A stretch of DNA of 58,211 nt from an uncultured Ectothiorhodospiraceae bacterium (GTDB lineage Bacteria > Pseudomonadota > Gammaproteobacteria > Nitrococcales > Nitrococcaceae). The DNA lies in NCBI GenBank assembly GCA_913061005.1, contig CAJXSH010000010.1, positions 1 through 58,211 on the forward strand. The letters are read 5' to 3'. The notes under the pieces are model-generated. The model was given only the letters and a program-made list of their open reading frames with translations. It ran no database searches and had not been told where the DNA came from. Position 1 is the stretch's first letter; every line of letters starts with the position of its first letter. Both the position numbers and the translations under genes were made by a program. Of this stretch, positions 43,795-58,211 are shown one piece after another.

Positions 43795-44813
43795 GGACAA
43801 GGACAACGCGACGCCAAGTATTCGCCGGCCTGATCCTGCTGGGGCTCTTTGGCCTGGCGGCGGTTTTGTTGGCCTGGCAAAACGTTGTCGAGCGTCCACT
43901 GGGCGACGGGCCGCAGACCGTGATCCAGGTCGAGTCGGGCAGTAGTTTTGCCGAGGTGGCAACCGCGCTCGCTGACCGGCGGCGCGGGGTCAATGCCACG
44001 CTACTGCGGGTCTATGGACGGCTCAGCGGCATCGCCGGACGAATCCAGGTGGGGGAGTACCGTATCCGCGCCGCGGAATCCGCCGCCGATCTGCTGCAGC
44101 GCATGGCCGAGGGCGATGTGATCGAATATCGGTTCACCATCATCGAGGGTTGGCGGTTTACCGAGATGATGGCAGCACTCGAGCGCGAAGCGGCCATCGA
44201 CCACACGCTGGGCGCCGATGCCTCCGGCGCTGAGGTCATGGAGGCCATTGACCGACCCGGTGTCCATCCGGAGGGGCGGTTTTTGCCCGAGACCTATCAC
44301 TACACCCGCGGGACCACGGATGTCGCACTGCTGCGGCGGGCCAATCGGGCGCTGGAGGACGCGCTGGCGGCGGCCTGGCAGGATCGTCACGAGCCTCTGC
44401 CGCTGAACGATCCGGACGAGGCGCTGGTGCTTGCCTCGATCATCGAAAAAGAGACGGGGCTTGCGGCCGAGCGTCGACGGATTGCCGGGGTTTTTACCCG
44501 GCGTCTGCGAAAGGGCATGCGCCTGCAGACCGACCCGACCGTGATCTACGGCATCGGCCGGTCATTCGATGGCAATCTCACCCGCGAGCATCTGCGCACC
44601 GATACCCCCTATAACACCTATACCCGTCACGGGCTGCCCCCCACCCCCATCGCGCTGCCGGGGGCGGCGGCCATTGCCGCGGCCACGCAACCACTGCCCG
44701 GCGAGAGCCTGTATTTTGTCTCCCGGGGGGATGGCAGCCACGTCTTCTCCAAAACGCTAGAAGCGCACAATGCGGCGGTTCGGCGTTATCAACTCCAATC
44801 CGGGAGCGAGTGA
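43791..44813 (+). CDS. mltG: Endolytic murein transglycosylase MltG
   Basis: 340 residues. GTG start overlaps the pabC stop. One N-terminal TM helix (AGLILLGLFGLAAVLLAW) is followed by a LysM-like subdomain (VIQVESGSSFAEVATAL) and the YceG domain with the catalytic glutamate in SIIEKETG (about residue 219), and the QTDPTVIYG and YNTYTRHGLPPTPIALPG segments. It cuts nascent glycan strands at the inner membrane. Confidence 0.93.
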   Translation: MRTRTTRRQVFAGLILLGLFGLAAVLLAWQNVVERPLGDGPQTVIQVESGSSFAEVATALADRRRGVNATLLRVYGRLSGIAGRIQVGEYRIRAAESAADLLQRMAEGDVIEYRFTIIEGWRFTEMMAALEREAAIDHTLGADASGAEVMEAIDRPGVHPEGRFLPETYHYTRGTTDVALLRRANRALEDALAAAWQDRHEPLPLNDPDEALVLASIIEKETGLAAERRRIAGVFTRRLRKGMRLQTDPTVIYGIGRSFDGNLTREHLRTDTPYNTYTRHGLPPTPIALPGAAAIAAATQPLPGESLYFVSRGDGSHVFSKTLEAHNAAVRRYQLQSGSE

Positions 44814-45439
44814 TGCGCGGGGCTTTTATCACCATTGAAGGGACCGAGGGGGCGGGGAAGAGCTCGGCGGTGGAGACCGCCCGTGGGTGGTTGCAAGCCG
44901 CCGGTCACCGGGTGGTGTGCACCCGCGAGCCCGGTGGCACCGGCCTGGGTGAGGAGCTGCGCGAGGTGCTGCTGTCGCACCGCGACGACGGGATGACGCC
45001 TGCGGCCGAGGTGTTGTTGATGTTCGCCGCCCGCGCCGAGCATATCGAGCGGGTGATCCGGCCGGCCCTTGATGCCGGTGACTGGGTGATCTGCGATCGA
45101 TTCAGCGACGCCAGTATCGCCTACCAGGGCAGTGGCCGGGGCCTGGGCGTGGACCACGTCCAGGCCCTCGCCGCGTGGCTGCATCCCGATCTACAACCCG
45201 ACCTGACGCTCTGGCTGGATCTGCCCGTCGAGACCGGGCTGGCCCGGGCGGCCGAACGCAGCGCGCCGGATCGGTTCGAGCGCGAGAAAACCGCATTCTT
45301 CGAGCGGGTGAGGGCGGGGTATCAGACCATCGCCGAGCGGGCACCGGATCGTGTCCGACGGATCGATGCCGCACAGTCCCCGGCTGAGGTCAGTGCGGCG
45401 ATCATCGACGCGCTTTCGAGGTTCGCTCATGTCGATTGA
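44813..45439 (+). CDS. tmk: Thymidylate kinase
   Basis: 208 residues. P-loop EGTEGAGKSS, the TREPGGTGLGEELR stretch, the DRFSDASIAYQGSGRG segment and the LDLPVETGLARAAER lid region identify dTMP kinase. The ATG at 44813 overlaps the mltG stop by one base (TGATG); a GTG three bases earlier is possible. Makes dTDP for DNA synthesis. Confidence 0.95.
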   Translation: MRGAFITIEGTEGAGKSSAVETARGWLQAAGHRVVCTREPGGTGLGEELREVLLSHRDDGMTPAAEVLLMFAARAEHIERVIRPALDAGDWVICDRFSDASIAYQGSGRGLGVDHVQALAAWLHPDLQPDLTLWLDLPVETGLARAAERSAPDRFEREKTAFFERVRAGYQTIAERAPDRVRRIDAAQSPAEVSAAIIDALSRFAHVD

Positions 45440-46415
45440 TCAAGCGACGCCGCTGCCCTGGCAGGCGCCCATCTGGTCGCGATTTATCGCCAACCGCCGC
45501 GATGGCCGGATTGCGCATGCCTATCTGCTCGCCGGCCCGTCGGGGGTGGGCAAACGGCAGCTGGCGTTGACGATGGCCGCCGGGTTGCTGTGCCAGTCAC
45601 CCGAGGCGGGCCTGGCCTGCGGCCGTTGCCGGAGCTGTCGGCTGCGTATCGCAGGCAGTCATCCGGATTGGCGGCTCGTCGAACCCGAAGCGCAGGGCGG
45701 TGTCCTTAAAATCGACGCCATCCGTGATCTGATCGACTACAGCCATCTGACCAGCCAGTATGGCGATCATCGGGTTGTCATTCTCCATCCCGCCGAGGCA
45801 ATGAACCGGGCCTCGGCCAATGCGCTTTTGAAAACCCTCGAAGAGCCGCCGCCCGGCGTAGTGCTGATTCTGGTCAGCCACGACATGGCCGGGCTGCCAG
45901 TGACCATCCGCAGCCGCTGTCGTATCGAGCGATGCCCGCTGCCCGATTCGGCGCAAGCGGCGGACTGGCTCGGCGAGCAGGGCATTACCGATGCCGGGCG
46001 CGCCCTGGCGGCGGCCGGCGGCGCGCCCCTGGCGGCCCGGGAGATGGCCGAAGCCGGGCACATCGAGATGCTCGAGTCCCTGGCGGGGGATGTCGGCGAG
46101 TTGCTCGAGGGGGGGCGCAACCCGGTGGAGCTCGCCAGCACCTGGCAGTCGAGTGGCAGCCTGATGGTGCTCACCTGGATGCAGCGGTTGCTCACCACCG
46201 CTCGGCGGCTGCAGTGCAATGCCCGCGATGGGCTTGCCATGACCCTGGCGCCGGGGTTTGCCAAGGCGGTGGGCGGGTTGCCACCGCGCCGGCTGCATGC
46301 CATCGACCGACAGCTGCAACAGCTGCGCTCGGCCGATCGTCAGCCCCTTGCCAGGGAGCTCGCCATGGAAGCGCTATTTCTTGCCTGGTTGATCCCGGAG
46401 GCCGATATCGAATGA
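45429..46415 (+). CDS. holB: DNA polymerase III subunit delta-prime HolB
   Basis: 328 residues. AAA+ module with Walker A GPSGVGKRQ, a zinc site formed by CQSPEAGLACGRCRSC, the IRDLIDYSHLTSQYGDHRVVI and NALLKTLEEPPPGVVLIL stretches with the SRC motif (IRSRC), then the helical domains. The GKR instead of GKT form agrees with delta-prime being a poor ATPase. It belongs to the clamp loader. Start overlaps tmk by 11 bases. Confidence 0.93.
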   Translation: MSIDQATPLPWQAPIWSRFIANRRDGRIAHAYLLAGPSGVGKRQLALTMAAGLLCQSPEAGLACGRCRSCRLRIAGSHPDWRLVEPEAQGGVLKIDAIRDLIDYSHLTSQYGDHRVVILHPAEAMNRASANALLKTLEEPPPGVVLILVSHDMAGLPVTIRSRCRIERCPLPDSAQAADWLGEQGITDAGRALAAAGGAPLAAREMAEAGHIEMLESLAGDVGELLEGGRNPVELASTWQSSGSLMVLTWMQRLLTTARRLQCNARDGLAMTLAPGFAKAVGGLPPRRLHAIDRQLQQLRSADRQPLARELAMEALFLAWLIPEADIE

Positions 46416-47194
46416 TTGTTGACTCGCACTGCCACTTCCATCTGCTCGAATCGACCCCCAGTGCCGAGAGTGCGCTCGCCGAGGCCCGGGCCGCCGGCGT
46501 GGATTACTTTCTCAATGTGGCCGTCGATGTCGAATCCCGCGACCGGCTGGTGGCCTTCAGTGAGGCCCACCCCAGGGTGCTGACCTCGGTCGGGGTGCAT
46601 CCCTGCGGTAAGGGGACAGACCCCGCGCCGGAGGTACTGGCCGAACTCGCCGATCATCCGGCGGTGGTGGCCATCGGTGAGACCGGTCTGGACTACGGCG
46701 CCGGGCCCGGGGATTACAGCTGGCAGCAGGCGCGTTTTCGACGCCATATCGAAGCGGCTCGACGGGCGCAGCGGCCGATCATCGTCCACAGCCGTCTGGC
46801 GCCCGAGGATACGGTGCGTATCCTCAAAGAAGAGCGGGCAGAGGAGGTGGGTGGTGTGATCCACTGTTTTGTCGAGGATCAGCGCACCGCCGCGGCCATG
46901 CTGGATCTTGGCTTCTACCTCTCGTTATCGGGGATATTGACCTTCGGCAATGCCCGCGCCCTGCGCGAGACCGCCCGTGAATTGCCGCTGGATCGTTTGC
47001 TTGTCGAGACCGACTGCCCGTATCTCGCGCCGGTACCGCACCGCGGATCAGAAAACCGACCGGGCTGGGTTTGCGAGGTTATTCAGTGCCTTGCCGATAC
47101 CAAATCAACCTCGTTCGAGGCCATTAGCGAGCAGACAGCAAAGAACTTCTTTGACTGTTTTCCGGCCGCGGCCAACGCGCTCGGTGCTAGATGA
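46412..47194 (+). CDS. TatD family hydrolase (YcfH-like)
   Basis: 260 residues, TIM-barrel metal hydrolase. Here the first strand has the standard VDSHCHF ligand pair, then GVHPCGKG, GETGLDYG, VHSRLAPEDT, HCFVED and the VETDCPYLAPVPHRG end. This is the tatD-family gene normally found after holB (YcfH in E. coli). It overlaps holB by ATGA; the pilZ gene often placed between is absent. The true tatD paralogue is at 4.5 kb. Confidence 0.9.
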   Translation: MIVDSHCHFHLLESTPSAESALAEARAAGVDYFLNVAVDVESRDRLVAFSEAHPRVLTSVGVHPCGKGTDPAPEVLAELADHPAVVAIGETGLDYGAGPGDYSWQQARFRRHIEAARRAQRPIIVHSRLAPEDTVRILKEERAEEVGGVIHCFVEDQRTAAAMLDLGFYLSLSGILTFGNARALRETARELPLDRLLVETDCPYLAPVPHRGSENRPGWVCEVIQCLADTKSTSFEAISEQTAKNFFDCFPAAANALGAR

Positions 47195-48389
47195 GCCGCT
47201 CGAAGATCCGAAACCCGGCAAGATAAGTCCCCACCGCCGAGCCCAGCGAGGCAAACAAAAACACAAGCAGTGTCCGGGCGACGCGGTTATGCCACCAGCC
47301 CCGCCAGTGGGTGACCGCATCGCGCAGGGCACGAAAGTCCTCTACGCGGGGACGTCGCGCGAAAAGCTCGATCGCCGCGGCCACGAATCCCGCGCCAATG
47401 GTGGGATTGAGCGATGTCAGCGGCGCCGCCAGAAACGAGCCCCCCACGGTCAACGGATGCCCACGGGCGAGCAGTGCGCCGACGGCGCAGAGACTGCCAT
47501 TGATCACCACCCAGTCCATCACCAGTTGCAGCCCCAGGGCCGTGCTGCGCGAAAAACCCATGGCAAAGCCAATCAGAATGACCGCCGCGACGGCCCAGGG
47601 CAGCAACCGGGGCCAGCGCGCCGGCGGTGGCACCGCATCGAGCTGTTCGCGTTCGTCGGCCGGGGCCAGCGACGGGTCGGCCAGCGCATCGGCCAGGCCG
47701 CTCAAATGCCCGGCGCCGATAACGACCAGCACCCGGGCCGGCGGTGTGTCGGCCGCGTCAACGGATTCGCGCAATCGAGCGGCCATGTAACGGTCCCGCT
47801 CGGCGATGAGCGGCGCATAGAGCGCCGATGAACCGCTGGCGAACTCGCTGAAGGTGGCCTCGAGCATATCCCCTTGCTTGAGCCGTTCGATGTCCTCGGC
47901 GCCAATATCCTGCCGCGACAGGAGGCTGCCAATGAGCCCGGTGAACAAACCCGGGCGTTGCCACCAGGGAATGTTGCGATAGACGCGCTTGAGCGTGGTG
48001 CCGATCTCGCGGTCGATGCACCAAAGCGGCAGTCCCAGCCGGCGGGCGCCCGCGATACCGGCTTCGAGTTCGGCGCCCGGGCGGATATCGAATTGCTCGG
48101 CCAGCCTTTGCTGATAGGCACCCAGTGCCAGACTCGCCATGACCATACCGGCCTTGCCATTGCGCAGAATCTCGAATAAGTCCATCCGCTCGAGGGCATG
48201 GGGGTCGGTCATGCTCTGGTAGCGAGTCGCGCAGAGTTCGACGGCCACGGCGTCGTAGGCCTCGCTATCGATCGCGCGACGGACATCCGCGACGCTTTCT
48301 GGCGAGACATGGGCCGTGCCGAGGAGCACGAAGCGGGTGGCGCCCACCTGGACCTCGCGTGTCAGGTGGCTTGGCTGGTGCGTTGACAT
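47187..48389 (-). CDS. TraB/PrgY family membrane protein
   Basis: 400 residues. The N-terminal TraB domain opens with RFVLLGTAHVSPES and contains VAVELCATRY, the RDRYMAARLR segment and GAGHLSGL, the conserved Glu and His positions thought to form a metal site. The C-terminal part has four or five hydrophobic segments. PrgY of Enterococcus, of this family, blocks pheromone signalling, and plant and animal relatives are organelle proteins; the bacterial role is unknown. It overlaps convergent tatD-like gene by eight bases. Its promoter zone holds an AT-rich palindrome. Confidence 0.85.
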   Translation of the reverse strand: MSTHQPSHLTREVQVGATRFVLLGTAHVSPESVADVRRAIDSEAYDAVAVELCATRYQSMTDPHALERMDLFEILRNGKAGMVMASLALGAYQQRLAEQFDIRPGAELEAGIAGARRLGLPLWCIDREIGTTLKRVYRNIPWWQRPGLFTGLIGSLLSRQDIGAEDIERLKQGDMLEATFSEFASGSSALYAPLIAERDRYMAARLRESVDAADTPPARVLVVIGAGHLSGLADALADPSLAPADEREQLDAVPPPARWPRLLPWAVAAVILIGFAMGFSRSTALGLQLVMDWVVINGSLCAVGALLARGHPLTVGGSFLAAPLTSLNPTIGAGFVAAAIELFARRPRVEDFRALRDAVTHWRGWWHNRVARTLLVFLFASLGSAVGTYLAGFRIFERLI

Positions 48390-48446
48390 GGGCGGGGATT
48401 ATCCCTGAGCGCGGTGACAAGAGCCAGCGACCGATCCAATACGTCG

Positions 48447-48462
48447 CATAATATATATTATG
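48447..48462. promoter_or_regulatory. 16-bp AT palindrome upstream of the TraB gene
   Basis: CATAATATATATTATG is a perfect inverted repeat, flanked by TTAAATAATG, in an otherwise GC-rich region. It lies 58-73 bases before the traB-like start codon, where the promoter is expected on the minus strand, and could be an operator or contain the -10 element. Confidence 0.5.
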
Positions 48463-48510
48463 TTAAATAATGTCCGCGCAGGGATCAGGCGGTCTTTCAC
48501 CATCGCCCCG

Positions 48511-49257
48511 TCACTCACACACCGAATGCCAATCCTCGCGGATATCCCACTCCCGCTTGGTAAAGCGTGCGGCATCGGTCTCGAGCAAAACGGCAGCGAT
48601 GAACCGCGCACAATCGTCCGGCGTGGTGAGCTGCTGATTGGCTTTCATCGCCCGGAATTGATCCACGGCAGGAAAATCCTCAGGGGTTTGTTCGCGGATC
48701 AGCGCCTGCATGGGGGTATCCACCACACCCGGTCGCAGGCTGCCGATAGCCACACCGCGATTGCCAAGCTCGGCTTTTAACACCTCGTAGACCATATAAA
48801 GCGCCGCCTTGCTGGTGCAGTAGGCGCCCCACCCTGCAAGCGCCCGGTGGGCGGCGCCGGATGAGATATGCAAAATGCGAGCGCCCGTCGCCATGTGATC
48901 AAAGAGCGCCTGGCTGAGGGCAATCGGCGCTTCGACGTTGACGGCAAGGCTCTGGCGGATGGCATCAGTCGATTGCTCGAGCAGCGGGCCCACCGGCTCG
49001 AGGGTGCCGGCGTTATGAATCAAATAGCCCACGCGACGGTCGCCCACGGCCGCAGCAATCCGTGCGCGATCGGCCGGGTCCGCCACATCGGCAATGCAAG
49101 GCTCAATGCCCGGCTGACCCGTGGCCAATTGCTGGAGGGCGGCCTGCCGTCGTGCCACGGCGATCACCGTGTGCGAGGCGGCCAGTCGCATGGCAAGCGC
49201 GTGACCGATGCCGCTGCTCGCGCCGGTTAGAACGACAACCGGTTCTGCCTCGCGCAT
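48511..49257 (-). CDS. Short-chain dehydrogenase/reductase
   Basis: 248 residues, classical SDR. TGASSGIG loop at 10-17, NAGTLEP, catalytic Ser in HISSG, and YCTSK active-site tyrosine/lysine. The short loop set and the VLTGASSGIGHALA start resemble sepiapterin/benzil reductases. The oxidised or reduced substrate cannot be told. It overlaps the upstream hydroxyacid dehydrogenase gene by one base (TGATG), so the two form an operon. Confidence 0.85.
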   Translation of the reverse strand: MREAEPVVVLTGASSGIGHALAMRLAASHTVIAVARRQAALQQLATGQPGIEPCIADVADPADRARIAAAVGDRRVGYLIHNAGTLEPVGPLLEQSTDAIRQSLAVNVEAPIALSQALFDHMATGARILHISSGAAHRALAGWGAYCTSKAALYMVYEVLKAELGNRGVAIGSLRPGVVDTPMQALIREQTPEDFPAVDQFRAMKANQQLTTPDDCARFIAAVLLETDAARFTKREWDIREDWHSVCE

Positions 49258-50222
49258 CAGGTCACGACCCGGACCGGCGCCTGGTCCTTCCAGGCGGTGA
49301 TGTTCTCGCAGGTCTGGCTGACAATGCGCTGGCGGGCGGTGCGACTGCCCCAGGCGCTGTGCGGGGTCATGATGAGGTTGGGGATATCCGCGGCCAGCAA
49401 CGGGTTGCCGTTTTTGGGTGGTTCTTCGGTGAGCACGTCCATCCCCGCGCCGGCAATGGTGCCACGACGCAGCGCGTCGGCCAGATCGGCTTCGTTGACG
49501 ATCCCGCCCCGGGCGGTATTGATGACAAATGCATCGGGTTTCATGCGCCCAAACACCCGCGCATTGAAAAGGTCATGGGTGGCCTGGGTCAGTGGGCAGT
49601 GGATGGTTGCCACATCGGTCTCGGCGATGGCCTTTTCAAACGCCACCCGCCCGGGCCGGACGGTTTCTGCCCCTGGCCGTTCGGCGATCTGAACGCGCAT
49701 GCCCAGGCATTCGGCCTTGCGGGCCACAGCGGCCCCCAACTCGCCATGGCCAACCACCAGCAGCGTCCGGCCGGCAAGCTCACGGATGGGATAGTCGAGA
49801 AAGCAAAAATGCGGGGCCTGCTCCCAGCGCCCTGCCCTGACGGCCTGGTGATAGTCCACCAGACGGGTATGGAGCGCCAGCATCATGGCAATGGCATGCT
49901 GGCTGACCGCCTCGGTCCCGTAGCCCCGGCAGTTCACCACCGTGACCCCGCAACGCTGGGCGGCCTCGAGGTCGATGTTGTTGACCCCGGTCGCGAGCAC
50001 ACAGATGAGTTCGAGCGCGGGACAGGCCTCGATGACATCGGCGCTCAGCACCACCTTGTTGACGATCGCCACCCGGGCATCACCGATGCGCGCGGCGGCA
50101 TCATGGGCGCTGGTTTGATCATAGGTCACGAGTTCGTCGACCGACGACTCAAGCCCGGTGAAATCCAGATCGCCGATATCCAGGGTCTCTCGATCGAGTA
50201 ATACCGCCCGTGTCATGCCCAT
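49257..50222 (-). CDS. D-2-hydroxyacid dehydrogenase (glycerate dehydrogenase-like)
   Basis: 321 residues, NAD-dependent. The Rossmann core has VVGHGELGAAVARKAE, and the catalytic triad is Arg in NTARGGI, Glu in LTEEPP and His in MTPHSAW. VLATGVNNIDLEAA and GYGTEAVSQHAIAMMLAL are close to the HprA-type group reducing hydroxypyruvate or glyoxylate. Start at 50222 is supported by GGGGGAAG upstream. The substrate is not certain. Confidence 0.87.
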   Translation of the reverse strand: MGMTRAVLLDRETLDIGDLDFTGLESSVDELVTYDQTSAHDAAARIGDARVAIVNKVVLSADVIEACPALELICVLATGVNNIDLEAAQRCGVTVVNCRGYGTEAVSQHAIAMMLALHTRLVDYHQAVRAGRWEQAPHFCFLDYPIRELAGRTLLVVGHGELGAAVARKAECLGMRVQIAERPGAETVRPGRVAFEKAIAETDVATIHCPLTQATHDLFNARVFGRMKPDAFVINTARGGIVNEADLADALRRGTIAGAGMDVLTEEPPKNGNPLLAADIPNLIMTPHSAWGSRTARQRIVSQTCENITAWKDQAPVRVVT

Positions 50223-50513
50223 CTCTTCCCCCTTGACTGATCAAGTCGCCCGGCGTCGGGTTATGCACAGTCATCGTGCAAGTGGCGCTCCGTCCCCCAG
50301 CGCGAGAGCAAGGATGAACGGGTTGGGCGAATTTGACAATGCAAAGTATGCGAAAAACTGCGTAAAGAACTGATTAATAAGAAAAATAAACGAACTGGTG
50401 AAAGTTCCATCATTTTAACGTAAATGCCCATCGGGCAAGGGTTTGGACCACCCATCGGTGGAGCTGTCCACAAACTTATCCACAGCTTTTGTGGACAAGT
50501 CACCACCGGTCCA
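50223..50513. other. DnaA-box cluster with AT-rich stretch
   Basis: 291 bases between two minus-strand genes. Two perfect DnaA boxes: TTATGCACA at 50261-50269 and TTATCCACA at 50476-50484. Two weaker ones surround the second: CTGTCCACA at 50464-50472 and, on the minus strand, TTGTCCACA at 50498-50490. TGTCCACAAA at 50465-50474 and TTTGTGGACA at 50488-50497 form a 10-bp inverted repeat. From about 50330 to 50425 the sequence is AT-rich (for example TTAATAAGAAAAATAAACGA). This is the layout of a replication origin or DnaA-titration/reactivation locus; usual origin neighbours are not in the window. Confidence 0.55.
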
Positions 50514-51182
50514 TTAACGCAGCAGGCGTCGCTGGGGTTTGATGGGGAGCTGGCCGCGCCAGTAAGTGATCACCAGAAACCCGAACGCCATGCCGCCCAG
50601 ATGGGCAAAGTGCGCGACCCCCGACATCGAGCCGGTGACACCGGCATACAGCTCGAACGCGCCGTAGAGCACAACAAAGTACTTTGCCTTGATGGGAATG
50701 GGCGGGAACAGCAGCATCAGGCGCTGTTCCGGAAACATCATCGCAAACCCGAGCAGGATCCCGAAAACCGCGCCCGATGCGCCAACGGTCGGATAGATGC
50801 TGCCGCTATCCGCCGCCATGGTCGCCACCACGAGCTGAATCACCCCCGCGCCAATCAGGCAGATAAAATAGAAACGCGCAAATGGGCGGGACCCCCAGAA
50901 TTGCTCCAGCGCGGTGCCGAACATCCAGAGCGCGAACATATTGACGAATAGATGAAACAGCCCGCCGTGCAAAAACCCGTAGGTAAGCAGCTGCCAGAAC
51001 GCGAATCCGGGGATGCCGCCGAAGCGATCGGTCATGCCCTCGGTGCCAAGCGGCCATAGCCCGAACCCCATGATGACCGCCGGGCCCAGGAGCATGTAGG
51101 CCAGAAAGGCCAGGCCGTTGACCACCAGCAGGCTCATGACCACAGGCGTGTCGCTGGCGTTTAGGGGTGTCATTGGGCGCAT
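50514..51182 (-). CDS. Rhomboid family intramembrane serine protease
   Basis: About 222 residues with six TM helices. The nucleophile is the serine in GASGAVFG and the partner is the histidine in FAHLGGMAFG; the LFHLFVNMFALWMFG helix provides the conserved His and Asn of the oxyanion region. It cuts TM segments of membrane proteins. Start could be 51182, 51173 or 51194; no clear ribosome binding site. The 3' end lies beside the DnaA-box cluster. It is divergent from the DUF3422 gene. Confidence 0.87.
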   Translation of the reverse strand: MRPMTPLNASDTPVVMSLLVVNGLAFLAYMLLGPAVIMGFGLWPLGTEGMTDRFGGIPGFAFWQLLTYGFLHGGLFHLFVNMFALWMFGTALEQFWGSRPFARFYFICLIGAGVIQLVVATMAADSGSIYPTVGASGAVFGILLGFAMMFPEQRLMLLFPPIPIKAKYFVVLYGAFELYAGVTGSMSGVAHFAHLGGMAFGFLVITYWRGQLPIKPQRRLLR

Positions 51183-51279
51183 GCCCGCCATCATACGGGC
51201 AGCCTGTGGGCGGACGCCACTTGTCCGTCCGCACCGCCGGGGGTAGCGTGCCGATGAGCTCAACGAAGGATCACCCAAC

Positions 51280-52584
51280 ATGGCCGACCCAACCGGCATC
51301 ACCACCCATCCACTGCGCGAAGCGCTGATCAAAGAGGCGCATGCGCGGCCATTCCAGAGCCTGGAAACCCCGCTCCGCGTCTCGCAACTGGTGCTGCACA
51401 CCGGCACCCGCGGCCGAAGCGCCGAGGTCAGCCACATGCAGGCGCTGTGCGAACGGCTTGATCACGCCCCACCGCCGGCGGATGCCGGGAATTTTGTCGT
51501 GCAGGGACGCGGGTTTCGTCTGCGCTGGGAGCGCCACACTGAGTTTTCGACCTACACGGTGTTCGCCGACGGCATGGGCGCGGATCCTTTCGATCAACCC
51601 GCCGTTGGAGCGTTGCCCGATGATTGGCTGGGCGCCCTCCCCGGCGACCTGCTTGCGGCCATGCACGTTGCGGTCACCGACGGCGGTGAGACGCCGCTCG
51701 ACAGCGACACGCTGGGCCAGCAGTTTCATCAGGAGAGCCTTGCCGGCAGCAGCTGTGCCGGCGGTGCGGCCAGCGTCTGGACCGACTTTCTTGCCGACGA
51801 ACAGGGTTTTGTGCGCTTTCTGGTGGTCAACGACCGGCTCAACCCGATGCAGGCGGGCCGGTTGGTGCAACGACTCCTCGAGCTCGAGACCTATCGGATC
51901 ATGGCATTGCTGGGCTTTCCGCTCGCGCGGGAGCTCTCGCCGGATATTTCTGATATGGAAACCCGGCTCGGCACGCTGATGGACCGTCTCTCGACGGTGT
52001 CTGATCTGGCCGACGAGCGAGAGTTGCTCACCGCGTTGTCAGAGCTCTCGGCCCGGGTCGAGCGGCTCATGGCCCGGACCAATTTTCGCTTCAGCGCCAC
52101 CGCCGCCTACGGCACGCTGGTCCGGCGCCGCCTCAACGCGCTACGTGAACAACGCATCGAAGGGGTCAGTACGCTGGATGAGTTCATGGAGCGGCGGCTG
52201 GCGCCGGCCCTCGATACCTGCGTACACATGGGCGAGCGCCTGGAGCGGGTTTCAAAGCGCCTCAGCCGGGCGGCCAATCTGCTGCGGACCCGGGTGGATG
52301 TGGCACTGGAGGCACAGAACCGGGACCTGCTCGAGTCGATGAACCGACGCGCGAGACTGCAGCTGCGGCTCCAGGAGACCGTTGAAGGGCTGTCGGTGGT
52401 CATCCTGAGCTACTACACGGTCTCGCTCATTAGCTTTGCCTTCAAAGGCCTCGGCGCCGCCGGCCGCATCCCCAACCCGGACGTGGCCACGGCACTGAGC
52501 ATTCCGGTGGTCGTGACGGTGGTCGCACTGGGTGTGCGTTTTGTCAGGCGACGTGTCATCCGTGACGATGCTGACGCCGGCTGA
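51280..52584 (+). CDS. DUF3422 family membrane protein
   Basis: 434 residues. The start HPLREALIKEAHARPF and the following stretch are the family signature. The middle (about 205-370) is mainly helical and coiled-coil-like, with LSTVSDLADERELLTALSELSARVERL and LERVSKRLSRAANLLRTRV, ending in two TM helices near residues 370-395 and 405-422. Such proteins occur in many Proteobacteria; the function is unknown. Start has AAGGAT upstream. It overlaps the VTT gene by 17 bases. Confidence 0.85.
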   Translation: MADPTGITTHPLREALIKEAHARPFQSLETPLRVSQLVLHTGTRGRSAEVSHMQALCERLDHAPPPADAGNFVVQGRGFRLRWERHTEFSTYTVFADGMGADPFDQPAVGALPDDWLGALPGDLLAAMHVAVTDGGETPLDSDTLGQQFHQESLAGSSCAGGAASVWTDFLADEQGFVRFLVVNDRLNPMQAGRLVQRLLELETYRIMALLGFPLARELSPDISDMETRLGTLMDRLSTVSDLADERELLTALSELSARVERLMARTNFRFSATAAYGTLVRRRLNALREQRIEGVSTLDEFMERRLAPALDTCVHMGERLERVSKRLSRAANLLRTRVDVALEAQNRDLLESMNRRARLQLRLQETVEGLSVVILSYYTVSLISFAFKGLGAAGRIPNPDVATALSIPVVVTVVALGVRFVRRRVIRDDADAG

Positions 52585-53278
52585 ATGGCGGGCCTCACTG
52601 CGCCGGCGCTGGCCCCTGCTCTGGCGGGGCGCCGTTGCCGTGGCCGTGGTAATCGGCCTGAGCGTTGCCTGGGAGGTCTACAACCTGGGGGCGTACGCCG
52701 AGCTCTCGCGGCTGCTCGAGCTGGGGGCCGGCCTGCGTCAGCAACCCTGGGCGATCCCTACCATCCTGCTTGGCTACATCGCAGCCGGGCTGGCCTTCTT
52801 GCCCCTGACCGTGGTCGTTGTCGCCACCATCCTCGTCTATGGGCCGCTCGGCGGATTCACGCTGGCCACGGCGGGCACCCTGGCAACCGCGGTCAGCGGA
52901 TTCATCCTGGGCCGGGCCCTGGGCGCAGAGCCTCTGCGTCGCCTCGGCGGCCCGACCCTGCATCGGCTCAACGCCCAGGCCGAGCGGCACGGGGTGATGA
53001 TCATCACGGCGCTGCGGATCATGCCGGTGGCCCATTTCCATGCGGTCAGCGTGTTGGCGGGGGCCTCACGCATCCGGCCCGGCGCCTATATCACCGGGAC
53101 ATTGGCCGGGACCGTCCCGGGCATTGCCGCGATTGCCGCAGTGGGCAATCAGGCCAAACGGTTTCTGGTCGACCCGAATATCGCCGGACTGCTCGTGCTC
53201 GCCGCGCTGGCTGGATTGAGTCTGGCGGTGTTCTACGGGCTCAGACGCTGGCTGGGTCGCTACACCGGTGAGGATTGA
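52568..53278 (+). CDS. VTT-domain (TVP38/TMEM64) membrane protein
   Basis: About 236 residues with five or six hydrophobic segments. The VTT/SNARE-associated core shows FLPLTVVVVATILVYGPLGGF and later LRIMPVAHFHAVSVLAG and GTLAGTVPG. Homologues (DedA-related) handle membrane lipids, and some act as lipid flippases. The first TM helix lies near 20-40. Start at 52568 preferred; a GTG at 52562 is possible. It is coupled to the DUF3422 gene, suggesting a shared membrane task. Confidence 0.83.
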   Translation: MLTPAEWRASLRRRWPLLWRGAVAVAVVIGLSVAWEVYNLGAYAELSRLLELGAGLRQQPWAIPTILLGYIAAGLAFLPLTVVVVATILVYGPLGGFTLATAGTLATAVSGFILGRALGAEPLRRLGGPTLHRLNAQAERHGVMIITALRIMPVAHFHAVSVLAGASRIRPGAYITGTLAGTVPGIAAIAAVGNQAKRFLVDPNIAGLLVLAALAGLSLAVFYGLRRWLGRYTGED

Positions 53279-53349
53279 CTGGTCTCGGGCAGCAAAGGCC
53301 ATTAGAATTCGCAGCCAAAATCCAATCAACACGGGAGGTTCCGGAGACC

Positions 53350-54375
53350 ATGGACAGAATCGGACAAATGGAGCGCACTATCGCGCGTCTTACCAGCCCC
53401 GGCCGGGGCATTCTCGCCGCCGACGAGAGCTACCCCACCATCACCAAACGCTTGTCCGACCATGGCATCGAATCCACCGAGGAGAACCGGCGCTTCTACC
53501 GCAGCCTGCTGGCCACCACTCCGGGCGTCGAGGCGTACGTCAGCGGGATCATCTTCTTCGAAGAGACCCTCGGGCAGAAAACCGATGAGGGAGTCCGGAT
53601 TCCGGAGGCATGCGACCGCCAGGGCATCGTCCCGGGCATCAAGGTCGACAAGGGCCTGACCGAGCTGCCGGGCACCGACGGCGAGAAGATCACCCAGGGG
53701 CTGGATAACCTCGGCGACCGGCTCGACGGCTATCTGGAACAGGGCGCGCTCTTTACCAAATGGCGCAATGTCTACGCGATCACCCCGAGCACACCCAGCC
53801 GCCAGTCACTCGAGACCAACGCCGAGGTGCTGGCGCGCTATGCCGCGATCGCCCAGTCCCGGGGCATGGTGCCCATCGTCGAGCCCGAGGTGCTCATGGA
53901 CGGTGACCACGACATGGCGCGCTGTGCCGAGGTGACCGAGGCAGCGCAGAGCGCGGTCTTCGAGGCGCTGCGTCGCCATCGGGTCATCCTCGAGTGCATG
54001 ATTCTCAAGCCCAACATGGTCTTGCCGGGCAAGTCGCAGTCACGCCCCAGTGTCGAAGCCTGCGCCGAAGCTACCCTCAAGGTCCTGCGACGGACGGTCC
54101 CGGCGGCGGTGCCAAGCATCAACTTCCTCTCCGGCGGTCAGACCAGCGAGGAAGCCACCGCGCATCTCAACGCCATGAACCGCGCGGACGGCCCCCGGCC
54201 CTGGGTGCTGAGCTTTTCCTACAGCCGGGCGCTGCAGAATCCGGTCCAGGCCGCGTGGCAGGGCGACCCAGCCAACCAGGGGGCCGCCCAGAAGGCGTTC
54301 CTCAAACGTGCCCGGCTGAACTCGCTGGCGCGCAACGGCCAGTACGAATCGGCCATGGAGCAGGAATCGGCCTGA
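53350..54375 (+). CDS. Class I fructose-bisphosphate aldolase
   Basis: 341 residues of the vertebrate-type class I family. RGILAADES near the N-terminus, the KWRNVYAI segment (Lys of the active site), VEPEVLMDGDHD and the Schiff-base Lys in ECMILKPNMVLPG are conserved, with NFLSGGQTSEEAT closing the barrel. It splits fructose 1,6-bisphosphate without metal. Many Gammaproteobacteria use the class II enzyme instead. A CGGGAGG sits about ten bases before the ATG. Confidence 0.93.
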   Translation: MDRIGQMERTIARLTSPGRGILAADESYPTITKRLSDHGIESTEENRRFYRSLLATTPGVEAYVSGIIFFEETLGQKTDEGVRIPEACDRQGIVPGIKVDKGLTELPGTDGEKITQGLDNLGDRLDGYLEQGALFTKWRNVYAITPSTPSRQSLETNAEVLARYAAIAQSRGMVPIVEPEVLMDGDHDMARCAEVTEAAQSAVFEALRRHRVILECMILKPNMVLPGKSQSRPSVEACAEATLKVLRRTVPAAVPSINFLSGGQTSEEATAHLNAMNRADGPRPWVLSFSYSRALQNPVQAAWQGDPANQGAAQKAFLKRARLNSLARNGQYESAMEQESA

Positions 54376-54388
54376 CGATCCAGGGCCT

Positions 54389-54422
54389 GGCCCGACGCCC
54401 GATCGACCTCGGGCGTCGGGCC
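54389..54422. terminator. Perfect 14-bp hairpin between aldolase and degQ
   Basis: GGCCCGACGCCCGA at 54389-54402 pairs with TCGGGCGTCGGGCC at 54409-54422 around loop TCGACC. It begins 14 bases after the aldolase stop and is 30 bases from the convergent degQ stop. No T run follows on either side, so it may act with Rho or as a 3' stabiliser for both transcripts. Confidence 0.65.
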
Positions 54423-54451
54423 GTCACAGCGCGACGCCGCCCTATCCGGCG

Positions 54452-55843
54452 TCAGCGCACCAGCACAAAGAACGCGCCATTGCCCCGGCGGATATTCAAA
54501 AGCAGTTGATCCTGCGCCGCGGCACGGGCACGCAGGTCATCCAGGCTTTCCACGGCCTTTCGGTTGACCGAAGTGATGACATCCCCGGGCTGGAGAAACT
54601 CCGCTGCCGGACTGCCGGGCTCGACGCTTGCCACCAGAACCCCGCGGACCTTGCCGAACAGCGGTGAGCGCTCGTTGAGCTCGCTGAACGTGGCACCGGC
54701 CAACCGCGGATGAACCGTGGCGGCGTTATCGATGTTGCCCGTCTGCGGGTCGGCAATGGTGGCACGGACCCGGGTGGTTTCGCCGTCGCGGAAATAGGTG
54801 ATCGAGATCTCCTCGCCGATCTGCCGAAGCCCGATGATATTGGCCATGGCGTTGGCATCGGCCACCGGCTCGCCATTGATGCGGACGATCACATCACCGG
54901 CCTGCAGCCCCGCCGAAGCCGCCGGTGAGTTCGGGGTGATCTGAGCGATCAGGGCGCCGGCGGTGCGATCGATATCAAAGGCCTCGGCAATCTCTGCGGT
55001 CAGGTCCTGCACCCGAACCCCCAGTATCCCGCGGCGCACCTCACCGTATTCAACAATCTGCTCCATGACCGACCGCGCCATATTGGCCGGGACGGCGAAG
55101 CCGATCCCGATGTTACCCCCACCCCGCGAGAGGATGGCGGTGTTGATGCCCACCAGTTCACCGCGAAGATTGATCAGCGCACCGCCGGAGTTGCCGGGAT
55201 TGATCGAGGCATCGGTCTGGATGAAGCTTTGCAGACGGATGTCCCGGTTACCCGGCAGGGTGCGATCGAGCCCGCTGACCACGCCCGTGGTGACCGTATG
55301 ATCCAGCCCGAACGGATTGCCGATGGCGATGGTGTAGTCGCCAACACGCAGCTCACCCGAGTCCGCCATGGGCAAAGCGGTCAGGTCATCGGCCTGAACC
55401 CGTAACACGGCAATATCCGTCGCCGGATCCGAGCCCACCACCTGGGCATCGAGTTCGCGGCCGTCGTTGAACGCGACTTTCACCCGATCGGCATTGGCGA
55501 TGACATGGTGATTGGTCAGGATGGTGCCGGCGCTGGCATCCACCACCACCCCCGAGCCCAGGGACTGCACCGCCCGCTGCCTGGGCTGTTCCGGGACATC
55601 GAAAAAGCGACGGAAGAACGGGTCGTTGAAAAGCGGATTGGACTCTGCCTCGACCATCCCGGATGTCGCGATATTGACCACCGCCGGTGAGACCTCCTCG
55701 ATCAGCGGCGCCAGGCTCGGGACGCTGCCATCATCGGGGTCGATGATCTGTGCGCCAGCCAACGCCGGTGCCATGACGGCGAGGACAACGAGCATCCAGG
55801 CGGCGAGCCGTTGTGATATGCCGGACGAACCCTCTCGATCCAT
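54452..55843 (-). CDS. degQ: DegQ/DegP-type periplasmic serine endopeptidase
   Basis: 463 residues. Signal peptide (WMLVVLAVMAPALAGAQ). The trypsin-like domain has His113 (TNHHVI), Asp143 (ATDIAVL) and Ser219 (GNSGGAL). Two PDZ domains follow (about 270-355 and 375-460). The short LA loop between strands (FNDPFFRRFFDVPEQP) is closer to DegQ than DegP. It degrades misfolded envelope proteins. It converges on the aldolase gene and is divergent from pncA. A long A run lies in the upstream gap (55890-55900 on plus as T). Confidence 0.93.
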   Translation of the reverse strand: MDREGSSGISQRLAAWMLVVLAVMAPALAGAQIIDPDDGSVPSLAPLIEEVSPAVVNIATSGMVEAESNPLFNDPFFRRFFDVPEQPRQRAVQSLGSGVVVDASAGTILTNHHVIANADRVKVAFNDGRELDAQVVGSDPATDIAVLRVQADDLTALPMADSGELRVGDYTIAIGNPFGLDHTVTTGVVSGLDRTLPGNRDIRLQSFIQTDASINPGNSGGALINLRGELVGINTAILSRGGGNIGIGFAVPANMARSVMEQIVEYGEVRRGILGVRVQDLTAEIAEAFDIDRTAGALIAQITPNSPAASAGLQAGDVIVRINGEPVADANAMANIIGLRQIGEEISITYFRDGETTRVRATIADPQTGNIDNAATVHPRLAGATFSELNERSPLFGKVRGVLVASVEPGSPAAEFLQPGDVITSVNRKAVESLDDLRARAAAQDQLLLNIRRGNGAFFVLVR

Positions 55844-55983
55844 ACAAGCCTCCTCGATTCATTTATCACGCAGATGGTGGTCGGGCGGTTTTTTTTCAAG
55901 CCCGGACCCAGCCCTTGCGCCCATTTACAAACCCCGCCGCATGCCCGCAGGCTGCAAGGATCAATTCCCGACGGGAGATCTCA

Positions 55984-56634
55984 ATGGCAGAGGGCAATCG
56001 CCGAACCGCCTTGATCGTTGTCGACATGCAGCCGGATTTCATGGAGGGCGGTCCGCTCGCCACCGAGGATGGCAGCGCGATCATCCCCGATATCCGGGCA
56101 CTGATGTTGAGCGGGCAATATACCGACATTGTCGCGACACAGGACTGGCACCCGGCCGGCCATGTCTCGTTTGCCAACAGCCACGACGCCGAGCCCTTCA
56201 CGGTCACCCAGCTCTATGGCCATGACCAGGTGCTCTGGCCCGATCATTGCGTCCAGACCACACCGGGCGCCCAACTCCACGCCGATCTGCCCTGGGAGAT
56301 GGCAAGCGTGATCATTCGCAAAGGCGAGGACCCCTGGGTCGATAGCTACAGTGGCTTTGCCAACAACTGGGACGCCGCCGGCGAACGCCCCCCCACCGGG
56401 CTTGCCGGATGGCTGCGCGAGCGCGGCATCACCGCGGTGGACTGCTGCGGGCTGGCGCGGGATTACTGCGTCAAATGGACCGCCGAAGACGCGGTTGCGA
56501 TGGGCTTTGAAACCCGGTTTCTCTGGGATCTGACCCGACCGGTGGACAGTAACGCCGATACCGATGTGCGCACCGCGCTGGATCAGGCCGGCGTTGGCGT
56601 TATCCGTGGCGATGGGCGGAGCCAGCCGTCCTGA
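55984..56634 (+). CDS. pncA: Nicotinamidase PncA
   Basis: 216 residues, cysteine hydrolase fold. Catalytic Asp14 in VVDMQPDF, Zn ligands Asp54, His56 and a later His in the DWHPAGH and LWPDHCVQ segments, Lys in IIRKGED, and the nucleophile cysteine in CGLARDYCVKWTA. It turns nicotinamide into nicotinate for NAD salvage. GGGAG about ten bases upstream backs the ATG at 55984; the longer frame upstream is not family-like. Confidence 0.92.
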   Translation: MAEGNRRTALIVVDMQPDFMEGGPLATEDGSAIIPDIRALMLSGQYTDIVATQDWHPAGHVSFANSHDAEPFTVTQLYGHDQVLWPDHCVQTTPGAQLHADLPWEMASVIIRKGEDPWVDSYSGFANNWDAAGERPPTGLAGWLRERGITAVDCCGLARDYCVKWTAEDAVAMGFETRFLWDLTRPVDSNADTDVRTALDQAGVGVIRGDGRSQPS

Positions 56635-56643
56635 GCGACGACC

Positions 56644-56675
56644 GCCACCCGCGGTGTTTAATGCTCGCGGGTGGC
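56644..56675. terminator. Hairpin overlapping the prfC stop, between pncA and prfC
   Basis: GCCACCCGCG at 56644-56653 pairs with CGCGGGTGGC at 56666-56675 around a 12-base loop. It spans the end of prfC (stop at 56658-56660) and follows pncA by nine bases. No T run on either strand, so a weak or Rho-assisted terminator for the convergent pair. Confidence 0.5.
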
Positions 56676-58211
56676 GCTGAACTCGATATCCGGCCAGCGC
56701 TCTTCGGTGAGCTGCAGATTGACCCGCGATGGGGCGATGTAGGTAAGCGCGCCAGAGACATCCTCGGCCAGATTCTCCGCCTGCCGGTCCCGGAATCGAG
56801 CCAGCATCTTCTCATCCGGGCAATACACCCAACGCGCCGTCGAGACCCCCACCGGCTCGAACAGGCACTCGACGCCGTATTCGTGCTTAAGCCGAAAGGC
56901 GACGACATCAAACTGCAGTGCCCCGACGGCACCGACAATCAGATCGTTACCGGTCAGTGGCCGGAAAAGCTGAGAAGCGCCCTCCTCGCATAGCTCCACC
57001 AGGCCTTTTTGCAGCGCTTTCATGCGCATCGGGTCCTTGAGCACCGCGCGACGGAAAAGCTCCGGGGCAAAATTGGGGATGCCGGCGAATTTCAGCGCCT
57101 CGCCCTGGCTGAAGGTGTCACCGATCTGAATGGTGCCGTGGTTATGGAGCCCGATGATGTCGCCCGGATAGGCGGTCTCGACATGATCCCGATCCGAGGC
57201 CAGAAAGGTGATGGCGTTGGCGATTTTGACATCCTTGCCAATCCGTACATGCCGGATTTTCATGCCCTTTTCGAACGCACCCGAGCACACCCGCATGAAC
57301 GCGATCCGGTCGCGATGGTTGGGATCCATATTGGCCTGGATCTTGAAAACGAAACCGGTGAATTTGCCCTCTGACGCCTCGACCGTGCGAGTCGCCGTCT
57401 CCCGTGGCTGGGGCGGTGGCGCGTGCTCGACAAACCGATCGAGCAGCTCCTGCAGGCCGAAGTTGTTGATCGCCGAGCCAAAAAACACCGGTGTGAGCGC
57501 CCCGCGGCGGTAAGCCGCGACATCGAAGGCGTTGCCCGCCTCCTGCAGGAGCTCGATTTCGCCGCGCAGCTCGTCGGCCTGATCACCCAGCACCTCATCC
57601 AGCCGGGGGTTGTCCAGTCCCTGGATGATCTCGCCCTGCGCAATGGCCCCCTGGTGGTTGGCGTCGTAGAGATGGACCTGGTCATCGAGCAGATTGAATA
57701 CCCCACGAAAGCGTTTCCCCATGCCGATGGGCCAGGTCACTGGCGCACACCGGATCTGGAGGATGCGCTCGACCTCGTCCATCAGATCCATGGGGTCGCG
57801 GCCCTCGCGGTCGAGCTTGTTCATAAAGGTCATGATCGGCGTCGACCGCAGCCGGCAGACTTCCATGAGCTTGATGGTGCGCTCTTCGACGCCCTTGGCC
57901 GCATCGATGACCATCAAGGCCGAGTCCACCGCCGTCAGTGTCCGGTAGGTATCTTCCGAGAAATCCTCATGCCCCGGTGTATCGAGCAGGTTGACCATCC
58001 GGTCGCGGTAGGGGAACTGCATGACCGACGAGGTCACCGATATGCCGCGCTCTTTTTCCAGCTCCATCCAGTCCGAGGTGGCGTGGCGGTTGGATTTACG
58101 CCCCTTGACGGTGCCGGCCAGCTGGATGGCGCCGCCAAAGAGCAGCAGTTTTTCGGTAACCGTTGTCTTACCCGCATCGGGGTGGGAGATGATGGCAAAG
58201 GTACGGCGGCG
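56658..58211 (-). CDS. prfC: Peptide chain release factor 3 (5' end cut by window)
   Basis: 517 codons visible; the frame is open to the right edge and alignment with E. coli RF3 (529 residues) suggests about eleven N-terminal residues are missing. The GTPase domain shows the HPDAGKTT P-loop, [12 protein letters not shown] switch region, [12 protein letters not shown] and NKLD; then come [20 protein letters not shown], the [15 protein letters not shown] domain and the C-terminal [12 protein letters not shown]3 frees RF1/RF2 from the ribosome after termination. An internal ATG at 58067 is not the start. Confidence 0.95.

Follow-up and report, generated by a model that had tools for sequence, protein, structure and literature searches.

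What is a cluster of DnaA boxes doing in the short gap between a 2-hydroxyacid dehydrogenase gene and a rhomboid protease gene, on a contig without dnaA? The question concerns a window (the whole stretch of DNA analysed) of 58,211 nucleotides from an uncultured Ectothiorhodospiraceae bacterium, whose dnaA gene is on a different contig, in agreement with an earlier note that saw none nearby. That note, made from the letters alone, had listed two perfect boxes, two weaker ones, a 10-bp inverted repeat of box cores and neighbouring AT-rich bases, and all of these are present: the distal box and box II (Table 1) are perfect TTATNCACA boxes, with no others in the window, the box CTGTCCACA has two mismatches and the inverted TTGTCCACA has one, the repeat is formed by TGTCCACAAA (50465-50474) and TTTGTGGACA (50488-50497), and the AT-rich stretch covers, judged by eye, about 50330-50420. 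Fewer than one perfect box is indeed expected by chance (0.32), yet two or more were reached in 5 of 100 shuffles, so that the box count alone is mildly unusual, and boxes with one mismatch show no excess (12 in the window versus 10.6 expected).

It is the arrangement of the boxes and its conservation, rather than their number, that exceed chance expectation. When the window was scanned for box III, 3 bp, box II, 5 bp and an inverted box I, with up to five mismatches summed over the triad, exactly one site was found, and it has three mismatches in all; simulated DNA (9.3 Mb, first-order Markov) had no triad of this geometry at four mismatches or fewer. Of 144 spacing pairs tried on the window, one other, (9,5), likewise scored at four mismatches or fewer. 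The core of this locus, here called DARS-A, is non-coding and outside oriC, lying between the start of the dehydrogenase gene and the low end of the rhomboid gene, and it has the three DnaA boxes, with box I opposed to boxes II and III, by which a DARS is defined.

Order, orientation and the 3/5 spacing of the core are the same in both DARS elements of Escherichia coli, DARS1 (between bioD and uvrB) and DARS2 (upstream of mutH). The triad scan returned one site in each E. coli DARS stretch (NC_000913.3 813107-813141 for DARS1, L075, and 2969135-2969169 for DARS2, L044) and none, at up to five mismatches, in 4-kb stretches around E. coli datA and oriC. The III-3-II pairs recovered by geometry are the double boxes given in PMC11317965 for the ChIP-bound elements, TAATACACA-tgg-TTATCCACA at DARS1 and TTCTTCACA-act-CTATCCACA at DARS2. 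Both E. coli elements are described as sharing their box spacing, with box I in the orientation opposite to the other two (PMC5742627), and the head-to-head boxes I and II as functionally essential (PMC10380432). Because order, orientation and spacing of the triad equal those of the E. coli DARS cores and are absent from the datA and oriC stretches, the cluster is, judged from its sequence, likely to be a DARS-type (DnaA-reactivating) element and not an origin. The earlier note had left the choice between a secondary origin and a datA/DARS-like control site: the DARS-like part of this proposal is supported by the geometry, and the secondary origin is not supported by the chromosomal data given below.

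Table 1. Features of the DARS-A region, with the second core of the same genome (window coordinates except in the last line; offsets are counted upstream from box III)
Feature	Position	Strand	Remarks
dif (XerCD recombination) site, CGCATAATATATATTATGTTAA	48445..48466	+	match at <=3 mismatches
Short-chain dehydrogenase gene	48511..49257	-	Pfam PF00106; between dif and DARS-A
2-Hydroxyacid dehydrogenase gene	49257..50222	-	Pfam PF02826/PF00389; start faces DARS-A
Distal DnaA box, TTATGCACA	50261..50269	+	203 bp before box III
IHF-type site, 1 mismatch to WATCAANNNNTTR	50363..50375	-	at -101; sequence match
A-rich tract adjoining the IHF-type site	50376..50396	.	part of the AT-rich stretch; role presumed
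Fis-type frame, 15 bp, G...C	50397..50411	.	weak match; conserved columns in 58 copies
Probable DARS-type core, locus DARS-A	50464..50498	+	box III, 3 bp, box II, 5 bp, inverted box I
DnaA box III-like, CTGTCCACA	50464..50472	+	2 mismatches
DnaA box II-like, TTATCCACA	50476..50484	+	perfect
DnaA box I-like, TTGTCCACA	50490..50498	-	1 mismatch; head-to-head with box II
Rhomboid protease gene	50514..51437	-	Pfam PF01694; end abuts DARS-A
DARS-B core, own genome	C4:10619-10653		between convergent histone-deacetylase-type and AFG1-type ATPase genes

The core is kept in relatives, where the earlier note had suggested looking for it. Allowing one mismatch, the core pattern matches 62 of 95 genomes (own genome included): all 14 of the genus, 51 of the 54 of the order and 11 of the 41 from the rest of the class, leaving 30 of these 41 without a match; the reversed pattern matches none of the 95. 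A stricter, exact core pattern matched the named genome collection in just 10 stretches, one of them betaproteobacterial (Rhodocyclus tenuis, contig NZ_JACIGE010000006.1, L131). Two further families of the class have cores before a priA-type helicase gene (L046) and between nadC- and miaB-type genes (L047).

A looser search within the genus identified two loci, A and B, in 11 of the 14 genomes. Locus A (DARS-A) is present in 13 genomes and went undetected in G003, where the contig carrying dif stops 1.8 kb beyond that site; locus B (DARS-B) is present in 12 and was not found in G007 or in G011, the latter 99% complete. DARS-B is placed about one third along a replichore, and in the own genome (G000:C4:10451-10653, L003) it has a distal box, TTATACACA, 168 bp ahead of box III. 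One genus of the order has an amplified DARS-type module, with 10 core matches in G038:C1, seven in G028:C1 and seven in G034; seven of the ten matches in G038 cluster at 2.20-2.29 Mb, and of 18 copies examined in G038 and G028 (loci L168-L180) 17 have a distal box with at most one mismatch and 13 an IHF-type site. A mobile-element origin of the DARS-A copy is not supported, since its place is kept across the genus. No similar DNA was found in plasmids (361-base query) or E. coli genomes (141-base query), comparison with phage DNA gave a single 21-base match (E 0.4) in an unannotated phage record, and no Rfam family reached its gathering score in 44000-58211.

For the region upstream of the core, 89 distinct cores were gathered from the fetched loci (not every pattern match), 87 of them with 260 bp of upstream sequence; 58 non-redundant copies, about 13 of them from the genus, were left after dropping those at least 62% identical over -150 to +35. 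The letters of the core are conserved in these copies by design of the search and the upstream letters are free of this. All 13 genus A copies have a TTATNCACA box with at most one mismatch at -199 to -203 (11 perfect), and among the 58 copies such a box is found on the same strand at -230 to -120 in 50 and is absent in eight, the controls giving 1/58 (opposite strand), 2/58 (reversed pattern) and 3/58 (complemented pattern). The distal box is helically grouped: its offsets fall at 145-146, 160, 167-173, 176-181, 189-191 and 198-203, with a vector strength of 0.66 at 10.5 bp and a best period near 10.95. A jitter null (sd 5) matched this vector strength in none of 5000 trials, and the 23 unique offsets gave p = 0.0018; both values are optimistic, as the copies are related.

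Nearer to the core is an IHF-type site of fixed orientation. With one mismatch allowed, it is found at -99 to -101 in 10 of the 13 genus A copies and at -102 to -86 in 31 of the 58 (opposite orientation 2/58, two shifted intervals 0/58), the remaining 27 copies having no such site in this interval; of the 12 genus B copies, ten have an additional IHF-type match at -126. Between this site and the core, the columns G-66, AA-62/-61, T-56 and C-52, conserved and palindromic in the 58 copies, fit a Fis 15-mer, and exact matches to the Fis consensus are found at -68 to -64 in 11 of the 58 copies, whereas the remaining 5-bp bins average 0.4. In DARS-A itself this frame is weak, being shifted by 1 bp and missing several consensus positions. 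The scans for dif and Fis used the consensus letters of these sites. The IHF consensus used is also given in PMC10380432. As the one-mismatch IHF-type site has an adjoining A-rich tract, the AT-rich stretch is probably better read as context of this site than as an unwinding element.

The place of DARS-A on the chromosome is next to the terminus. A dif site, not mentioned in the earlier note, lies 2 kb from the box cluster. The dif pattern, at up to three mismatches, has exactly one site in each of the 14 genus genomes, and the reversed pattern has none in these genomes. Twelve genus genomes have DARS-A and dif on one contig, with a gap of 1.95-2.67 kb in 11 and of 8.3 kb in G002; in G004, both are close to the ends of contigs. 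Beyond the genus, seven genomes have the core on the same contig as dif, and in three the two are near each other, G048 (1.2 kb), G018 (2.9 kb) and G031 (10.8 kb), the pairs of G038 (about 100 kb), G032 (241 kb), G072 (373 kb) and G087 (824 kb) being far apart. In G017 the core is about 9 kb from a weak dif match with four mismatches; in G015 there is no dif in the 82 kb examined of the core's contig, and a dif match lies at the end of another contig.

The position of dnaA agrees with a terminal location. Relative to the length of the main contig, the distance to dnaA is 0.457-0.496 for locus A and 0.151-0.186 for locus B in six genus genomes that are complete or nearly so (G001, G002, G005, G006, G008, G012). 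The skew minimum that the earlier note had suggested looking for is not what the window has: cumulative skew rises to 46-47 kb, keeps level until about 54 kb and declines after that, so that the cluster sits on a maximum plateau. In G006, all 11 skew samples between dnaA and 822 kb are positive and all nine from 826 kb onward are negative, with dif at 823.6 kb. In all 14 genus genomes a perfect TTATCCACA follows the DnaA C-terminal domain at a distance of about 110 bp or less. The examined dnaA region is richest in AT at this place too in G006 and G001, indicating that this is the probable oriC. As far as examined (for skew, G006 only), the skew minimum and a dnaA with its own box are thus elsewhere, which counts against an origin at DARS-A.

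How could a DARS-type element act here? By analogy, ADP-DnaA would bind all three core boxes, the AAA+ domains would be brought together by the head-to-head boxes II and I and thereby release ADP, and the freed apo-DnaA would take up ATP and be able to initiate at oriC again. Bending by IHF near -100 and by Fis near -66 may set the distal box on a fixed helical face relative to the core and so gate the reaction. Binding of DnaA, IHF and Fis, nucleotide exchange and an effect on initiation are all predicted for DARS-A from its sequence. All 14 genus genomes have dnaA, and matches over the cut-off were obtained for Hda in 13 and for IHF-alpha in 11; the own MAG, 84.7% complete, has no IHF-alpha match over the cut-off. 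It does encode a 90-aa protein with a Fis-type HTH, and the frame that follows is presumably PurH.

Several observations count against a DARS: box III has two mismatches and the Fis-type frame of the DARS-A copy is weak, the own MAG has no IHF-alpha match over the cut-off, the uvrB or mutH neighbourhood is missing, the distal box (8/58) and the IHF-type site (27/58) are each lacking in part of the copies, DARS-B was not found in two genus genomes, most class genomes outside the order (30/41) have no core match at one mismatch, and the exact core pattern has few matches in the named collection. The dif-side position, the surprising feature of the locus, is also unlike the E. coli model, where DARS2 moved to terC works poorly, with a fall in origin concentration and synchrony (PMC5010248).

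The same features were weighed under three other explanations. An improbable one is a datA-like site or DnaA sponge, acting by titration, or by ATP hydrolysis, on an IHF-bent array of boxes. The distal box, the IHF-type site and the second box cluster together have a datA-like outline: E. coli datA, too, has its IHF site between DnaA boxes and depends on box 2, the IHF site, box 3 and their spacing (PMC4585315), and the 7 to 10 core copies in G028, G034 and G038 would suit titration. However, DARS-A has the DARS triad and the 4-kb datA stretch, compared by this triad alone, does not; a sponge needs no fixed 3/5 spacing, and the terminus, with the lowest copy number, is a poor place for titration. 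E. coli datA moved to terC has reduced function (PMC5010248). Less probable still is a transcriptional DnaA site that controls the adjacent 2-hydroxyacid dehydrogenase and short-chain dehydrogenase genes. The start of the former is 39 bp from the distal box, the letters of the 13 aligned genus copies, judged by eye, point to a comparable gene start close to the box, and a 2-hydroxyacid dehydrogenase gene neighbours the core also in G015, G017, G018 and G031, but elsewhere the core is beside unrelated genes (the convergent pair at DARS-B, the nadC-/miaB-type and priA-type genes of L047 and L046, and DnaJ and SDR genes in L106), and a pure promoter site leaves the head-to-head geometry unexplained.

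A secondary or relic replication origin is hardly credible. Boxes adjoining an AT-rich stretch do resemble oriC, but the AT-rich part is probably accounted for by the IHF-type site, the cumulative skew of the window is of the terminus type, the skew of G006 flips at dif, and dif is 2 kb off with dnaA about half a chromosome away in the six genus genomes; a secondary origin was therefore rejected on skew, dif and dnaA position.

If DARS-A is a DARS-type element, it shares traits with both E. coli elements. An IHF-type site at a fixed place upstream, a trait of the DARS2 subtype, is present at DARS-A as a one-mismatch sequence match, and E. coli DARS2 has a one-mismatch match at -87 on the same side and in the same orientation. 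DARS2 is described with two adjacent IHF sites and the Fis sites FBS2-3 (PMC4245941), which lie beyond the IHF site; the conserved Fis-type frame of the module, weak in DARS-A, is on the core side of the IHF-type site, and involvement of Fis is a plausible likeness between the two. Activity of DARS2 needs binding of both IHF and Fis; when its IHF sites are shifted away from the core, 5 bp is worse than 10 bp, and both shifts toward the core give only partial activity (PMC4245941). In contrast to DARS-A, DARS2 has no same-strand box at up to two mismatches between -145 and -203. E. coli DARS1 (L075, NC_000913.3 812500-814000) has at -197 a same-strand TTATCCCCA box with one mismatch and at -99 an IHF-type site with two, the latter oriented as in DARS-A and with an adjoining A-rich tract; these matches are weak, and -197 is just outside the main offset groups, though near the offsets of the module. 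Both fall outside the 101 bp as which DARS1 is described (PMC5742627). Neighbours and places differ as well: neither DARS-A nor DARS-B is beside uvrB or mutH, and E. coli DARS1 and DARS2 are at 0.33 and 0.21 from oriC (PMC5010248), DARS-A at 0.46-0.50 in six genus genomes, beside dif.

DARS1- and DARS2-like sequences in many proteobacteria are already in print (PMC10380432), and conservation of DARS2 is described for Enterobacterales, Vibrio and Shewanella (PMC8682772). A dif-linked DARS or a helically spaced distal box was not found in the open-access literature examined, including the accessible parts of PMC12371093 and PMC13220808. The distal box with its helical spacing offers a concrete model of IHF/Fis gating that can be mutated, and a candidate extension of E. 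coli DARS1. Of the 12 genus genomes that carry both on a single contig, 11 have the DARS-type site no more than 2.7 kb from dif, and in four further genera, one of them with a weak dif match, the distance is at most 11 kb. This arrangement is a natural counterpart to the relocation of E. coli DARS2 to the terminus, where that element worked poorly. Either low dosage is tolerable in these small genomes, or the dif-side place carries timing information; E. coli DARS1 shows little position preference (PMC5010248).

It has long been asked how a finished replication round is signalled to the initiator, and DARS-A beside dif suggests a possible link between the end of one round and the licensing of the next. 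A speculative and less likely reading is a termination-coupled switch, kept beside dif, in which duplication of the site at the very end of replication or its release by XerCD/FtsK would raise ATP-DnaA and so permit the next initiation, and in which the four-box, helically phased module bent by IHF and Fis might be the ancestral gammaproteobacterial DARS, with E. coli DARS1 as its decayed remnant.
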